A DNA stretch of 22,971 nucleotides from a virus, in the IMG/VR virus record IMGVR_UViG_3300008448_000694, positions 1-22,971 of that record. One strand, given 5' to 3'. A program made the position numbers and the translations under genes. How positions within the stretch are numbered: position 1 is the first letter of the stretch; each line of letters starts with the position of its first letter. This document shows, piece by piece, positions 8,602-15,136 of this stretch. Under the pieces are notes generated by a model. That model was not told the origin of the DNA, searched no databases, and saw nothing but the letters and a program-made list of their open reading frames with translations.

Positions 8602-8711
8602 CAAACATCCAGCCCGCGTCGGGTCGGGAGGTCCCGAAGGGCCGACGACCGCGGGCCAAGTATCCAGCCCGCGTCGGATCGACAGGGCGGAGCCCTGTGA
8701 CCGCGGGCCAC
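8602..8711 (-). repeat. Hairpin repeat R, two tandem copies
   Basis: Two adjacent units, about 8602-8658 and 8659-8711, share outer arms (CCAGCCCGCGTCGG on one side, GACCGCGGGCC on the other). The inner parts differ: the second holds ACAGGGC-GGA-GCCCTGT (8682-8698, plus-strand reading), the first a short CGGGA/TCCCG hairpin. The outer arms GCCCGCG and CGCGGGC can pair, giving a long double hairpin per unit. The units fill the gap between the tail tip and hub-like genes. Confidence 0.8.
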
Positions 8712-8718
8712 AAAGATA

Positions 8719-9381
8719 TCAGGCCCGGAGATCCTGCAGGCCGGCGACGGTGCCGGACGTGCGAAGGTTGCGGGTCTTTTCCCCGAGGCGAGTCTCGGCT
8801 GTGTCCAGCCTCATGATGCAGACCGGATTGGCCAGATCCGCGACAGCACCGCCCGGAATCAGGGTCGGCAACGGCGGCTCCACCCGCAGCGTCACGGCGC
8901 CGGAGCCGTTGGCCGTCGAGGCCTCGACCAGGACGTGCAAGGATCGCCGGGGCTCGGACGACGTCACCCAGCGCCACATCACATAGTCACCGATCGACAG
9001 CACAAAGCCGGCCGGCAGGCCGGTCAGGGCAGGTTGATCGCGCTCGGCATTGACGGACCATGACGCGGCGGAACCATCGAAAGCGCCGCCGCCGGCCCGG
9101 TTCAGGCCGCCGAAACCGGACGGATAGGCCAGCGGAAAGGGCCGCCCACGGTCCCCGGCATACCAGGGGATCTGTGCCCCCCGGCACCGCCGAACGAACG
9201 CCCGCCATTCTTCCGACGTGGCCTGCAGGATGCGGTCGCCGATGGTCCAGCGCGCGCGCCACAGCGGAAAGCCCGCCGTGACGCCGGTGGCACGACCGTC
9301 CGTGGTCGGCGACTGGAAGTCGACCCGCTCGATCTCGAAATACTCGGCACCGACGCCGCGCGGCGGGGTCAGGACGGTCAT
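8719..9381 (-). CDS. Tail tip protein downstream of the tape measure (function uncertain)
   Basis: A 220-aa protein, translationally coupled to the tape measure gene (ATGA). It begins MTVLTPPRGVGAEYFEIERV, contains RARWTIGDRILQATSEEWRAFVRRCRGAQIPWYAGD, a Gly-rich PLAYPSGFGGLNRAGGG segment, a beta-rich SIGDYVMWRWV and SLHVLVEASTANGSGAVTLRV, and ends with CIMRLDTAETRLG. The sequence looks like a mostly beta tail-tip component. Position corresponds to the distal tail / gpM-L slot of siphophages, which seals the tube and binds the hub. I do not recognise a named family with confidence. It ends just before the 185-base repeat-rich gap. Confidence 0.6.
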   Translation of the reverse strand: MTVLTPPRGVGAEYFEIERVDFQSPTTDGRATGVTAGFPLWRARWTIGDRILQATSEEWRAFVRRCRGAQIPWYAGDRGRPFPLAYPSGFGGLNRAGGGAFDGSAASWSVNAERDQPALTGLPAGFVLSIGDYVMWRWVTSSEPRRSLHVLVEASTANGSGAVTLRVEPPLPTLIPGGAVADLANPVCIMRLDTAETRLGEKTRNLRTSGTVAGLQDLRA

Positions 9382-12116
9382 CGGATCACCCGGCGGTTCA
9401 TGGCGTCCTGAACGATCTGCGGCACGACGGACGGCAGGGAGTTGGCCATGGCGTCCAGCTTGGCACTGAGGGCGTCGATCTCACGGGGGCCGGCACCCTC
9501 GGCATGGATCACCGGGGCGAAGCTGAACGAAACCGCCTGCGGGCCGCCGGATCCAGCCGCACCCGCGACCGCCAGCCGCCGGCTGCGGTCCGCATCGATC
9601 ACCTGGGCACCGCGCGGCAGGTTGACCAGTTCCGGACCTTCCTCGCCGACCCAGCTGGGCCCGCCCGGCCACCAGTCCGTGCCCCGGGCGTTACGACCGA
9701 AGCCGCCGAACAGGGTCGAGGCCAGCGCCGACAGCCAGTCTCCGCCGCCGGGCTTGCCCTTGCCGCCCATGATCGCCGCGAAATCCATCTCGAACAGACT
9801 GTCGATCAACCTGTCGATCAGACGGTCTGCCGCGGACTCGAACTGATTGCCCAGAGCGTCGGCGATTCCGCCCTGACGGATGTCGTCAATGAAGCCTTTG
9901 ACCCAGACCCGGCGCACGCCCTCGGCCTCGGCATCGATCTCCTGGCCGATCTCAACGCCCGCACGGCTTTCGCCGGCTCCGAAATTCAGCTTCTCGCGCG
10001 CTTCGATTTCGCGGGCGCGGCGCGCAATCCGCTCTTGCCGCTCCAGCAGCCGAACCTCGTCTTCACGGCCGGCCATGCGCGCCAGCGTCAGCTGATGCTC
10101 GGCGGCGGCCGTTTCGACCATCCGCGCCATCACATCCGCGCGCGCCTGCTCCACCAGCAATTGGTCCGTTGACGCCTTCAGCCAGGCATCGAGATACCCC
10201 CGGCCCGCTTCCAGATAGTCATTGATCCGACCGTGCCACTCGGCACTCTCTTCCGAAAGCTGAACGTCCCGTTCCATGCCCAGGATCCGGTCAACCTCGA
10301 TGGCGGCCGAGACCTGCAGGGCATTTGTCTCGCGCGCCGTGACGACCGCCCGGGCCGCGAGGATCTGCTGCTGTTCCTGCAGGGCCTGGGTGCGCGCCGC
10401 GCCGGCCTCGACATCGGCATCGACCAGCTGACGGATCCGCTCACGGACCGCCGCTTCGTCCTCCAGGATCCGCACATGATCGATGTCGTTCAGCGCGCGC
10501 GACATCTCCAGCTCGAGCATCGCCGCACGATCTTCAGCCGCACGATCACGCTGCAGTCTCTCGCGGACGAGGCGGTCGCCTGAACGGTCGGCGCCGGCGC
10601 CGCCCTGGCGCAGGGCAGCCAAGCGAGCAAGACGCAGGCGTTCTTCTTCGTCTTCCTTGTTCTTGGCGGCGGCGGCAAGTGCCACTTCCCGGCGCTGCCC
10701 ATCCAGCTGGCGGCGCAGCAGGCCAGCGCGCTCTTCTTCGAGGCCGCTGATGAAGCCGGGTGCCAGCCGGATGCCCCGCGCCTCGCGATTGCGGGCAGCG
10801 ATCAGTTCGCGGTCAAGGTTGGCCAGCCGTTCGTCCGGCGTGACATACAGGGCGCGATTTAGCTGGTCCCAATAGTTGCTGAGCTTGCGGGCCGCATTGT
10901 CCCATAAACCCTCTAGCTGACCGATCTGTTCGGCGTGCCCACTGGTGGCACCGCGCAAAGCCTCAATCAGGATCAGTTGCGCCTCTTCCTTTTTGCCCAG
11001 CTTCACCAGCGTGTCGATGTAATCGAGCGTCTTGCCGTCCAACAGGCCGAAGCTCAACGTCATAGCATGCGCGGCCTTGTCTGGTTCCGCCATCGCGCGG
11101 GCCAACTGGGTCGTGGCCTCTGCCGCGTCCACACCCATAAAGGATGCGTAATCCTTGCCGATCTCGATCAGATCATCGATGACCGCTTTGCCGATATTGC
11201 CGGTCTGGACATAGGCGGCGGCTTGCTCCCGCGCGGAGCGCACCGAGACCTCGCCCTGGATCGCCGCGACCTGCGCCAGGGTTTCCAGTTCGATTGCCGT
11301 CATACCGGAGGTCCGGCCCAGACCGGTCACCGCCCGGTCCAGCATCAACGCCTGCGACTCACCCTCTTTCCAGGCAACGGCCGCCACCGTCGCCGCCGCG
11401 GCCGCAGCCGTCAAACCCGCACCCAGCGCCAGCAGACCGGCCGACGCGCGGATCCCGCTGGTTGCCAGGGCGTCCGCGATCTGCGGACCCTGCTGGATCG
11501 CGATCATCGCCGGGTTCATGCCCATGGCCGCCGTCACGGCGACATCCGCGCCCTGTCGGGCGAGGTTCAGCCGACTGGCCACCTGGTTGCGGGTCAGGCC
11601 ATTGGTATTCTGCGCCAGGGACGCCGTCGTGGCGTCCAGTCGGGTCTTCGCCAGTTCCTGAGCCCGGGCCAGCTCCAGGGTGCTGATGGCCCCGCGCTTT
11701 TGCAGGGCCTCATATTCGCGCAGTTCGGCGTTGTAGCGGTCAGTCGCCGCCGCCAGCGGATCTATCTCCGCCTTCAGCTGGGCCGCGCGGCGCGCCGCGT
11801 CTTCATCGGCCCGAAATGCTGCGGCGAAAACATCCGCCGAGGCACTGGCGCTGCCGGCACCGGAGACGCCGCCGATGCCGAGTACCGAATTGAACTGGTT
11901 CTGGGCCTGCGCCGCCTGCGCCGCCATCCGCAGGGCCTCGGCATTCCGGCGCCACTGGGCCTCCTGTCGCGCGGCGGCCTGGGTCGCGCGGTCCGTCGCG
12001 GCGGCCGTGGCGGCGTTCGCCTGCACGCCGGCCTGTTCGATCTTGCGGACTTCGCTGACGACCTCGGCCCCGCCCTCTGCCGTGAGCCGGAGCGCGATCT
12101 GACGGGTGGCGGCCAT
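9378..12116 (-). CDS. Tail length tape measure protein
   Basis: A 912-aa protein that sets tail length and is ejected with DNA. The N-terminal 100 residues are Ala/Gln/Arg-rich coiled coil. A tape-measure core with RLNLARQGADVAVTAAMGMNPAMIAIQQGPQIADAL follows, then a hydrophobic stretch at about 220-243 (LLALGAGLTAAAAAATVAAV) that could insert in the host membrane, long charged helices (about 430-700), and the family C-terminus: FESAADRLIDRLIDSLF followed by ARGTDWWPGGPSWVGEEGPE and LVNLPRGAQVI (about 800-830). It is the second longest gene of the window, in the expected place after the chaperone. Its stop overlaps the next start as ATGA. Confidence 0.93.
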   Translation of the reverse strand: MAATRQIALRLTAEGGAEVVSEVRKIEQAGVQANAATAAATDRATQAAARQEAQWRRNAEALRMAAQAAQAQNQFNSVLGIGGVSGAGSASASADVFAAAFRADEDAARRAAQLKAEIDPLAAATDRYNAELREYEALQKRGAISTLELARAQELAKTRLDATTASLAQNTNGLTRNQVASRLNLARQGADVAVTAAMGMNPAMIAIQQGPQIADALATSGIRASAGLLALGAGLTAAAAAATVAAVAWKEGESQALMLDRAVTGLGRTSGMTAIELETLAQVAAIQGEVSVRSAREQAAAYVQTGNIGKAVIDDLIEIGKDYASFMGVDAAEATTQLARAMAEPDKAAHAMTLSFGLLDGKTLDYIDTLVKLGKKEEAQLILIEALRGATSGHAEQIGQLEGLWDNAARKLSNYWDQLNRALYVTPDERLANLDRELIAARNREARGIRLAPGFISGLEEERAGLLRRQLDGQRREVALAAAAKNKEDEEERLRLARLAALRQGGAGADRSGDRLVRERLQRDRAAEDRAAMLELEMSRALNDIDHVRILEDEAAVRERIRQLVDADVEAGAARTQALQEQQQILAARAVVTARETNALQVSAAIEVDRILGMERDVQLSEESAEWHGRINDYLEAGRGYLDAWLKASTDQLLVEQARADVMARMVETAAAEHQLTLARMAGREDEVRLLERQERIARRAREIEAREKLNFGAGESRAGVEIGQEIDAEAEGVRRVWVKGFIDDIRQGGIADALGNQFESAADRLIDRLIDSLFEMDFAAIMGGKGKPGGGDWLSALASTLFGGFGRNARGTDWWPGGPSWVGEEGPELVNLPRGAQVIDADRSRRLAVAGAAGSGGPQAVSFSFAPVIHAEGAGPREIDALSAKLDAMANSLPSVVPQIVQDAMNRRVIR

Positions 12117-12117
12117 A

Positions 12118-12816
12118 TCAATCCCTCCAGGCGTTGGCGATCAGGGTGGCACCGGTGGCGGCGGCACGCTCGGCCACCGCATCCAGATCCAGCCGCTTCT
12201 TCAGGGTCACCTGCGCCACCAGCGTGAAGGCGACGAAGGTCTGGCCCTCGGGGCCGTAAAGTTTCGAGCCTCGACCCTTGCTCTGGTAGGGGGCAATGAT
12301 CCCGCCGCTTCTGCGGTTCAGCCGGGCGCGGTCCGCGACCAGAAAGGCGCGGTTGCCCTTGCCCGGGACGAACCTCAGTTTCAGTCCGGTGCGACGCTCG
12401 AATCCGGCGGGCGTGATCCGCTCGCGCGCACCCTTCCGGTTTGTGGTGGCGCCGGCCCCGGACATCCCGGCCTTGAGGCCGAACCGCCCGGCCTCGGGCG
12501 TCGGCACGGCCAGCCATTTGCCCCGGTTTGCGCGGATGACCACGCCCCTGGAATGGGCCTCGATGATCTTCGCCGCCGAGCCGCGGACCTTGACCCAGCC
12601 GGCCGCATCGACGCTGTCGCCCGATCGGGGATAGACCTCGCCGCGCCAGGCCTTCGGCAGGCTGTTGCGGAACCCCAGGGCCAGAAAGGTCTCTTCGCGG
12701 ACATCCGCCTTCAGCGCCTCGGTCGCCGCCCTGACACCGCGCGTGACCGCTCGCGCCAGATCCTTTTCAAGGCCCCGGGCCAGACCATCGACATCGAAGG
12801 AACCGCGCACGGGCAT
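12118..12816 (-). CDS. Phage tail-region protein, DUF6441-like, function unknown
   Basis: A 232-aa protein between the chaperone and tape measure genes. It opens with an N-terminal helical part (DGLARGLEKDLARAVTRGVRAATEALKADVREE), then a basic, Gly/Arg-rich body with WVKVRGSAAKIIEAHSRGVV, KWLAVPTPEAGRFG, RFVPGKGNRAFLVAD, and ends with VAFTLVAQVTLKKRLDLDAVAERAA. This resembles DUF6441 proteins that many alphaproteobacterial phages carry beside the tape measure gene; the shape also recalls tail completion (Z-like) proteins, which would fill an otherwise missing slot. GAGGA lies seven bases before the ATG at 12816. The stop is one base from the tape measure ATG. The family name is from memory and uncertain. 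Confidence 0.6.
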   Translation of the reverse strand: MPVRGSFDVDGLARGLEKDLARAVTRGVRAATEALKADVREETFLALGFRNSLPKAWRGEVYPRSGDSVDAAGWVKVRGSAAKIIEAHSRGVVIRANRGKWLAVPTPEAGRFGLKAGMSGAGATTNRKGARERITPAGFERRTGLKLRFVPGKGNRAFLVADRARLNRRSGGIIAPYQSKGRGSKLYGPEGQTFVAFTLVAQVTLKKRLDLDAVAERAAATGATLIANAWRD

Positions 12817-12819
12817 GGC

Positions 12820-13556
12820 CTAGTCCTCGGCTTCCGAATTCTGATCTTCGCCCTTCAGCGCCAGCAGCACGACCGTCTCGATCTGCGGCAGGACGTCGGC
12901 CAGCAGGGCCGCATCGGCGCCCAGCGCCTGGCCGACCTGCATCACGGCACCGAAGTCCAGGCCGTAAGGTCCGTTCATGCCCATCCGCAGCTGCCAGCGG
13001 CAGCCCTTCAGGACTTGCCAGGCGCTCTGGCCGGCCACGGTCCGGGGCTGGTTTACGACGGCGGGGCACTCTCCGCAGCGGCGTCCGTTGTCGGCGATAC
13101 ATCCGTCGCAGTAGCTGTCGCCGCCCTCGGGGTGGAACTCCCACCTTGCGAGGGCGACAAGCCGTTTTTTTCCGCTTCGGCCTCCAGCAGCGGGCCCGCG
13201 TACTGGCGCTCGAACGCCTCATAGGCCGGGTACCAGCCCAGCAGCCGGTCAACCTGTTCCGGCGTCGGCTGGCCTTCGATCGGCGAACCGTCGACATCGG
13301 CCACGCCCTCCAGGGTCCGCAGGCCGCCTGGCCGATCGGGCGGAGCGTCAGGATCCGGGCGATGCACCAGCGCGCCGATCAGGGCGCAGCGATACCGCGA
13401 ATGCAGGTCGTGCGGCTCGCCCTCGCCGGTGGCCAGAACCAGATCACGCGCCCGGCCCTTGGCGCGCATATAGTCATAGGGCTGGATCGGGTCGCAGACC
13501 GCGACGGCACCGCCACCCAGGTCAATCCGAACGGGGTCGAAACTCTTCAGCTGCAT
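12820..13556 (-). CDS. Tail assembly chaperone, long (GT-like) product by -1 frameshift
   Basis: If ribosomes slip by -1 at A_AAA_AAC (13170-13164), the frame continues without a stop from CGG at 13164 to TAG at 12820, giving 131 + 114 = 245 aa. The extension begins RLVALARWEFHPEGG, contains four cysteines spaced CX2CX7CX2C (C150, C153, C161, C164), and ends with QSAWQVLKGCRWQLRMG, GPYGLDFGAVMQVGQALGAD and IETVVLLAL. The last segment resembles DUF1799-type proteins that serve as the T part in lambda-like phages. The downstream frame has only a GTG (13038) with no clear ribosome binding site as its own start, which favours expression as a fusion. Coordinates are given as one span; the frame changes at 13164. 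Confidence 0.8.
13053..13556 (-). CDS. Tail assembly chaperone, short (G-like) product
   Basis: Zero-frame product of 167 aa, ending at TAA 13053. Residues 1-131 (MQLKSFDPVRIDLGGG, then YDYMRAKGRARDLVLATGEG, PEQVDRLLGWYPAYEAFERQY, EAEAEKNG) form the shared domain. The last 36 residues after the slippery site are Ser/Thr/Ala-rich and look unstructured, as expected when the functional continuation lies in another frame. In siphophages the gene just upstream of the tape measure gene makes chaperones that coat the tape measure protein during tail assembly. Only a weak Shine-Dalgarno (GAG) precedes the ATG at 13556, and a stem-loop at 13581-13608 lies 25 bases upstream. Confidence 0.8.
   Translation of the reverse strand: MQLKSFDPVRIDLGGGAVAVCDPIQPYDYMRAKGRARDLVLATGEGEPHDLHSRYRCALIGALVHRPDPDAPPDRPGGLRTLEGVADVDGSPIEGQPTPEQVDRLLGWYPAYEAFERQYAGPLLEAEAEKNGLSPSQGGSSTPRAATATATDVSPTTDAAAESAPPS
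13117..13170 (-). promoter_or_regulatory. Programmed -1 frameshift signal: slippery heptamer plus stem-loop
   Basis: Coding strand reads GAA AAA AAC in the zero frame, so the heptamer A AAA AAC (13170-13164) has the classical X XXY YYZ register. Five bases later an imperfect hairpin starts: GTC pairs with GAC (13158-13156 with 13119-13117), GCCCTCG with CGAGGGC (13155-13149 with 13129-13123) and an upper stem GGTGG with CCACC (13145-13141 with 13135-13131). A GGC bulge and a small internal loop interrupt it. Heptamer, spacer and stem-loop are the standard parts of a -1 frameshift element. Confidence 0.85.
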
Positions 13557-13679: not shown

Positions 13680-13753
13680 CCCAGCCCGCGTCGGGTCGAC
13701 CCGAAGGGCGGCGCGAAAGCAGTCACAGGGCGGAGCCCTGTGACCGAGGGCCT
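13680..13753 (-). repeat. Hairpin repeat R, copy after the tail tube gene
   Basis: It carries the left arm CCAGCCCGCGTCGGGTCGAC and a perfect ten-pair hairpin GTCACAGGGC-GGA-GCCCTGTGAC (13722-13744, plus-strand reading), separated by extra bases that include CCCGAAGGGC. It begins right after the tail tube stop and could act as a terminator or mRNA end. Confidence 0.75.
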
Positions 13754-15046
13754 CTAGTAAGCCGTCACGTCATTGACCAGAACCGCCCGCAGTGTGCGCT
13801 GGGTCGCGGCCCTCTCGGTCGGCTTCATCTGGAAGGTCGTCCGGATCCCGCCGGGACCGGTCAGGCCCACCTTGCGACGCGGCAGGCGGACGTTCTCCAT
13901 GATGAAGTCGAGGCTCTTTTGCGGGCCGATCTGCCACCCCAGACGGACCGAAATCGGCGTCCGGGCCGTCGCAAGATCGTACAGGACCCGGTCGGCGAAA
14001 CGGACCGTGACATCCAGGCCGACGGAAAGCATGGCCGGATCCGCGCCCCCGATACGGCCGTCCGGACGGATCGATTCATCCTTCTCCAGATTGTTGCCGA
14101 TCCGCAGGGTCGCGCTCTCGACCCTGCCCAGCGGCACGCCGTCCTGTTCGATGATGCCCGAGAACTGGCTGAACCGCTCGGTGAGCCAGTCCGCAGCGAG
14201 CGTCCCCGCCATCGAGCTGACACCGACGTTTTCCCCCTGGCCGACCAGAGAGAGGGTGGCGTTCAGCAGGCCGGACCGCTGCATCTGGATCGACAGGTCG
14301 TTGACCATGACGCCATAGTTCATGCCGAAGTGCGGCACATCCGGGAAACCCAGCTGAACCGCCGCATCGGGGTGGGCCAGCTGCCCGGCGGTGAAAACGT
14401 GGTTGAAGGCTCCCGAGGCCGCGCCGCCGGTCAAGGTGGCGGCCGAGCGCGTCGCGTTCGTCGCCGGGGTGACGCCGGCCACCAGGGTGAAGCTGTTGCC
14501 GGCCGTCCCGACCGTATCGTGAACGATGTTCAGCACCGTGCCCGACAGGCTGGCCGAATAGGTGGCGACGGAAATGAGCGGGTCGGCGCTGGCATTCAGG
14601 AAGGCAACCAGGTTGGCCACCGTCTCCGCGATCGTTGCGCCGATCCTGCACTGGCCCGCGATGGGGGCGGCCGTCACAAGGGTGACGGTCGTGCCGTTGA
14701 TGGTCAGGATCGAGTTGTTCACCGGAAGGGCGGAAAACGTGTACGACCCGGAAGCAAACAGCCCCGCCGTGGTGACCGGGTTGCCCAGCAAAAGCCGAAG
14801 CCACAGGCCGAAATGCCTCAGATCGACAGGCACAACCGCCTGACCCTCATTGTTGACGACGTCATTGCCGCCGTCCTGCGGATCGCGACCGAAGCCGAGA
14901 ACGACGTCGTCCAGTACGTCCTGTTCCTCGCCCAGATCCACACTGACGACCGGGACCTTGCGGAACCCGGAAGCGGGAATCGATCCGTAGTCGCCCGTGG
15001 CAATCGCCATGGCAACAATGCCGTTTGCACCGCGAGCGCGAGCCAT
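13754..15046 (-). CDS. Major tail tube protein with an inserted domain
   Basis: A 430-aa protein forming the tail tube. The N-terminal part (GSIPASGFRKVPVVSVDLG, then LRHFGLWLRLLLGNP, about 20-90) and the C-terminal part (FNHVFTAGQ, GFPDVPHFGMNYGVMVNDLSI, about 213 onwards, to RKVGLTGPGGIRTTFQMKPTER) read as one tail-tube family protein. Between them, residues about 100-212 hold an extra Ser/Thr/Ala-rich beta segment with NSILTINGTTVTLVT, GATIAETVANLVAFLNASAD and GTAGNSFTLVAG. The insert sits where the tube family usually runs directly from GPYTH to VFT, so it is probably a domain displayed in a loop on the tail surface. ATG at 15046 follows GGAG six bases upstream. Confidence 0.82.
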   Translation of the reverse strand: MARARGANGIVAMAIATGDYGSIPASGFRKVPVVSVDLGEEQDVLDDVVLGFGRDPQDGGNDVVNNEGQAVVPVDLRHFGLWLRLLLGNPVTTAGLFASGSYTFSALPVNNSILTINGTTVTLVTAAPIAGQCRIGATIAETVANLVAFLNASADPLISVATYSASLSGTVLNIVHDTVGTAGNSFTLVAGVTPATNATRSAATLTGGAASGAFNHVFTAGQLAHPDAAVQLGFPDVPHFGMNYGVMVNDLSIQMQRSGLLNATLSLVGQGENVGVSSMAGTLAADWLTERFSQFSGIIEQDGVPLGRVESATLRIGNNLEKDESIRPDGRIGGADPAMLSVGLDVTVRFADRVLYDLATARTPISVRLGWQIGPQKSLDFIMENVRLPRRKVGLTGPGGIRTTFQMKPTERAATQRTLRAVLVNDVTAY

Positions 15047-15070: not shown

Positions 15071-15115
15071 CAGGCCATGTCGGGTCGGGAAGGCGGAGCC
15101 TTCTCGCCACGGGCC
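15071..15115 (-). repeat. Hairpin repeat R, copy before the tail tube gene
   Basis: A diverged copy: the inner hairpin GAAGGC-GGA-GCCTTC (15089-15103) is flanked by GTCGGGTCGG and CCACGGGCC. It occupies most of the 90-base gap between the U-like and tail tube genes. Confidence 0.7.
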
Positions 15116-15136
15116 AAAGGGAGATCGCCCGGCCCG

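Follow-up and report, generated by a model that had tools for sequence, protein, structure and literature searches.

In the tail module of phage lambda, the genes are ordered tail tube, G, GT and tape measure, and a -1 shift near the 3' end of G adds the T domain. The lambda heptamer is G_GGA_AAG, unlike the A_AAA_AAC of the locus described here, and in lambda we know of no DUF6441 gene separating GT from the tape measure gene. The lambda G/GT mechanism and its ratio have been reviewed (PMC5009743). In E. coli, frameshifting at A_AAA_AAC is much weaker than at A_AAA_AAG, which is the site that dnaX naturally uses (PMC5009743), and two tail chaperone frameshift genes of an HK97-like cluster were measured at 6% and 7% (PMC3711429).

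Homologous G and T, with a heptamer at the same junction, are found in the RcC phages of Rhodobacter capsulatus (RcOceanus, RcKemmy and others), where the two pieces are joined in one CDS under the name tail assembly chaperone. As at the present locus, this CDS comes after the tail tube gene and before the tape measure gene. The RcC phages differ in their heptamer (G_GGA_AAC) and in having the tape measure gene directly next, with no DUF6441 gene. Their stem-loop is a single hairpin because their T is without the two extra codons described below. A DUF1799 pair in Dhillonvirus genomes (Sodalis phage SO-1 gp15/gp16; Escherichia phages Teewinot and JLBYU60) likewise has an in-register A_AAA_AAC before a DUF1799-type T and lies between the major tail and tape measure genes, but its 0-frame stop falls right at the heptamer and its T starts without RLxALAxWHF or the four-cysteine segment. 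In the public annotation of Teewinot and JLBYU60 (L120 2392-2511; L121), the T frame is absent or truncated even though A_AAA_AAC and an open -1 frame are there, and in Teewinot a reverse-strand ORF is annotated at its position.

Here, we analysed a window of 22,971 nt (G+C 67.7%) that is the entire virus record IMGVR_UViG_3300008448_000694. We put the probability that its G/T locus is a lambda-type G/GT programmed -1 ribosomal frameshift in a siphophage tail module at about 0.96. Its place as a new member of the G/GT class is well supported, the mechanism itself being already established in lambda and widely conserved. An earlier note had proposed a tail chaperone -1 frameshift cassette at this position, and synteny, homology to chaperones, fold similarity and a heptamer in 100% of the sampled relatives all bear this out.

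The G/T locus in the siphophage tail module

On its minus strand, the window carries the head and tail genes of a siphophage. In the direction of transcription, the genes encode the predicted terminase large subunit, portal, a prohead protease/major capsid fusion, head decoration protein, tail terminator, tail tube, the G/T ORF pair, a DUF6441 protein, tape measure protein and distal tail protein (Table 1). The terminase large subunit was assigned by gene position and a reading of the translation, and an NCBIfam search with this candidate gave no match. The G/T locus thus occupies the chaperone position, after the tail tube gene and ahead of the tape measure gene, from which the DUF6441 gene separates it. 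In the sampled set, a DUF6441 gene was detected in that place in the window, L001 and L011/L002 only. Of 86 relatives, 61 had a tape measure homologue downstream of T, in most cases no more than a few hundred bases away.

Table 1. Coordinates of the G/T locus, its elements and its neighbours in the window
Feature	Position	Strand	Basis
G, 0-frame tail assembly chaperone, 167 aa	13053..13556	-	ORF; homology to the G part of the RcC-phage chaperone
Slippery heptamer A_AAA_AAC	13164..13170	-	in register, near 3' end of G; conserved in relatives
Spacer GGCTT, five bases	13159..13163	-	taken from the sequence; varies with the drawing of the stem foot
Two-tier stem-loop	13117..13158	-	outer arms 13158-13149 and 13129-13117; inner hairpin 13145-13141 with 13135-13131
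T, -1-frame extension, 114 codons and stop	12820..13164	-	open frame, Pfam, homologous T frames, predicted fold
Four-cysteine motif YCxxC..CxxCP of T, just past the frameshift junction	13066..13110	-	alignment of relatives
DUF1799/DUF7697 region of T, residues 47-104	12853..13026	-	Pfam
Tail tube protein (Phage_tube_2), neighbour upstream of G/T	13754..15046	-	Pfam, 130.2 bits
DUF6441 protein, additional gene separating GT from tape measure	12118..12816	-	Pfam, 95.9 bits
Tape measure protein (TMP_2), presumed chaperone client	9378..12116	-	Pfam, 133.9 bits

The tail-module layout and the examined slip-site stretch also match in two cyanophages, Synechococcus phage Sc-Yong805-1 (L006) and Nostoc phage Nsp-JY21 (L005), in both of which the slip site is A_AAA_AAA. 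In Sc-Yong805-1, the annotation calls the gene in the tail tube position a tyrosine recombinase, which seems to be a mistake.

Anatomy of the slip site and the two frames

Read on the minus strand, the 0-frame codons GAA (13172), AAA (13169) and AAC (13166) place an X_XXY_YYZ heptamer in the register of G, AAA and AAC being frame-0 codons of 13556-13053; the earlier note was right about the register. When base 13164 is read twice, the -1 frame is open for 114 codons up to a stop at 12822-12820. Translation across the shift gives a GT fusion of exactly 245 aa with the predicted junction EAEKN-RLVALAR, and the GTG at 13038 falls inside T. The 114 codons, the 245-aa product and the GTG had all been claimed in the earlier note, and all were reproduced.

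AAAAAAC occurs once in the window, both strands counted. Shuffled windows contained 0.44 copies on average and at least one copy in 36 of 100 shuffles, and the mere presence of AAAAAAC in a window of such size is not remarkable. For an in-register copy within the 168-nt overlap of the G and T frames, arithmetic from the shuffle counts gives an expectation of roughly 5e-4. A chance origin of the in-register heptamer is removed because it is conserved in every sampled relative.

The stem-loop downstream of the heptamer

The 59 nt after the heptamer fold with an energy of -33.1 kcal/mol, compared with -21.7 +/- 2.9 for dinucleotide shuffles (z -3.95), and none of 200 shuffles was equally stable. 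The two-tier stem-loop described before was recovered, with an inner GGUGG/CCACC hairpin nested in the outer stem. Its five-base spacer was recovered in one drawing, in which the foot of the outer stem is GUCGCC...GGCGAC and the structure lies within the range of about 5-9 nt for a downstream stimulatory element; the minimum free energy drawing instead pairs right up to the heptamer, the extra base pairs being ones that a ribosome would cover.

Some of this pairing could come free from coding, because the stem overlies conserved T codons (ALA.W.F..GGD). We recoded the T frame synonymously 500 times with the codon usage of the window, which was also applied to the relatives. The window stem was more stable than all 500 recodings (p 0.002, z -2.9). 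Across 70 distinct sequences, 33 reached p<0.05 where about 3.5 were expected (mean z -1.44), the relatives not being independent of one another, and several relatives in this set had weak stems. The stem-loop is conserved in position: when 27 relatives without the two extra codons were aligned, a 14-pair hairpin six bases past the heptamer had 81% of its cells paired, compared with at most 54% when it was slid. Compensatory changes were few and barely beyond column shuffles (23/500), so that covariation is weak and the case for the structure draws mainly on its stability and on the recoding test.

L001, L002/L011 and the window share the two extra codons (His-Pro) in the stem stretch. Of these, the window and L002/L011 retain the outer stem, and their apex has turned into a small additional hairpin, hence the two-tier appearance. 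The element had been called unusually complete; this did not hold, since many relatives have an equal or stronger stem-loop and the window is an ordinary member of its family in this respect.

Conservation of the heptamer and the frame relation

We scanned with an alignment of T whose motif sits just downstream of the slip site, and took the best 80 of 490 confirmed loci together with the window and six others (87 loci). In 87 of 87 there was a canonical heptamer whose last base is also the first base of the conserved Arg codon: 72 were A_AAA_AAC, 10 G_GGA_AAC, 3 G_GGA_AAA and 2 A_AAA_AAA, while A_AAA_AAG was found at the slip site in none of these 87. The scan was repeated with the C-terminal half of T only, which is blind to the slip site; this search was built on a 7-sequence set, a 28-sequence C-terminal alignment being too variable, and some of its loci are shared with the first set. 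An in-register A_AAA_AAC or G_GGA_AAC was present in 28 of 28 loci. An in-register heptamer was also present in all three Dhillonvirus genomes, which share only the DUF1799 part. The earlier note had named homologues lacking both the heptamer and the open -1 frame as the finding that would speak against it; both were present throughout (87/87, 28/28 and 3/3). Past the slip site, the 0-frame tail ranged from 1 to 61 codons across the sampled loci.

The run of seven consecutive A at 13171-13165 raises the possibility that RNA polymerase slips there and produces mRNAs with G and T in one frame, and exactly seven A are also found in 61 of 77 distinct sampled relatives. However, 11 of the 77 keep the arrangement and the register with only 3-4 A (G_GGA_AAC or G_GGA_AAA), and a stem-loop at a fixed distance downstream is a need of ribosomal frameshifting, not of polymerase slippage. 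We therefore regard transcriptional slippage as very improbable.

It is less probable still that T forms a separate gene, started at GTG 13038 or upstream, and that the heptamer is incidental. A mechanical gene caller would start T at that GTG, and T is annotated separately in some public records. However, the conservation of T begins at the slip site, with R[LI]xxLAxW.. from residue 1, well ahead of GTG 13038, and every sampled relative has the heptamer. Furthermore, 50 of 77 distinct sampled relatives have no start codon between the upstream stop and the slip site, their first start inside T being at residue 22 or later, a count that is partly conditioned on the search motif. A decayed or mis-sequenced single gene, arising by a true frameshift mutation or by an assembly error in an error-prone homopolymer run, is refuted by the relatives, with an identical frame relation and heptamer in all 87 loci (the best 80 of 490, the window and six others) from many contigs and the same arrangement in the annotated isolate genomes of the RcC phages.

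Identity of G and T

T matched DUF7697 in Pfam with 45.2 bits (cut-off 27) and DUF1799 (PF08809) with 26.4 bits, which is above the curated cut-off of 26 but marginal. The frame had been described as DUF1799-like, which passes the cut-off and yet is overstated; DUF7697 is the clear match. A PF08809 search of the L001 genome gave no match, and its controls were silent as well. G had no Pfam, PHROG or NCBIfam match. Compared with the RcC-phage tail assembly chaperones, G showed 27-29% identity to their G part, with E-values from 3e-5 (best) to 4e-2, and T matched at E about 1e-6. Both are thus homologous to recognised chaperones by sequence, and T resembles them by predicted fold as well: its AlphaFold2 model (pLDDT 89.2) had as its best viral fold matches proteins named tape measure chaperone (Foldseek probability 1.00). 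The 'tape measure chaperone' of Enterobacter phage F20, Klebsiella phage Solomon and Serratia phage Scapp has the same predicted fold as T at 19-23% sequence identity and E-values just above 1e-3, a likeness that lies in the predicted fold. Sequence and fold searches of the PDB with T found nothing similar among solved structures, and we found no literature on DUF1799 together with frameshifting.

Just past the junction, T carries a CxxC...CxxC module. Cysteines 1, 3 and 4 are invariant in 32 aligned relatives, and the four-cysteine pattern is present in 70 of 77 distinct sampled T frames. The module possibly binds metal, and it would be present only in the frameshifted product.

Proposed mechanism and implications

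That the shift occurs, its rate and its role in assembly we infer from lambda. Most ribosomes would terminate at 13053 and release G (167 aa). A minority would pause at the stem-loop with AAA and AAC (Lys, Asn) on A_AAA_AAC; both tRNAs would slip back one base, and the ribosome would then translate the -1 frame, yielding GT (245 aa). By analogy, G would coat the tape measure protein, GT would recruit tail tube subunits via T, and neither would be expected in the virion. We assume a usable shift rate at A_AAA_AAC in the host, which is probably alphaproteobacterial.

Specific to the family are the CxxC...CxxC beside the junction and a slip site that is A_AAA_AAG in none of the 87 loci; in the clade of the window, the extra DUF6441 gene before the tape measure gene is added to these. 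We suggest, as a speculation that is more probably wrong than right, that this family, found here largely in alphaproteobacterial-type phages, steers clear of the bacterial-type A_AAA_AAG and depends nearly wholly on slippage of the Asn-tRNA at A_AAA_AAC, and that its four-cysteine module binds metal and is produced by none but the ribosomes that have shifted. If this were true, decoding by the host Asn-tRNA would set the frameshift rate and the bound metal would set the activity of GT, and both would depart from lambda.

The alignments also provide a rule by which two gene calls can be joined as a single tail chaperone, namely R[LI]xxLAxW directly after A_AAA_AAN or G_GGA_AAN, which serves a large group of phages and prophages. 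The expectation in the earlier note that such a pair would be annotated as two unrelated hypothetical genes applies to Sc-Yong805-1, Teewinot and JLBYU60 in so far as the two are not joined there, but not to the RcC phages, where they form a joined chaperone. In addition, a chaperone role is suggested for proteins currently filed as DUF1799 or DUF7697.

Dispersed repeats in the window

The near-palindrome CCGACGCACG[C/G]CGTGCGTCGG occurs in five copies in the window (at 1644, 8565, 13634, 16361 and 22704), several of them at gene borders. Across the viral collection, just seven stretches contained its exact core, with four copies in IMGVR_UViG_3300020156_000011. A second dispersed repeat, with an inverted core of the AGGGCGGAGCCCT type, occurs at 1734-1761, 8682-8709, 13725-13752 and 15073-15116, near gene borders and in several places close to copies of the first.
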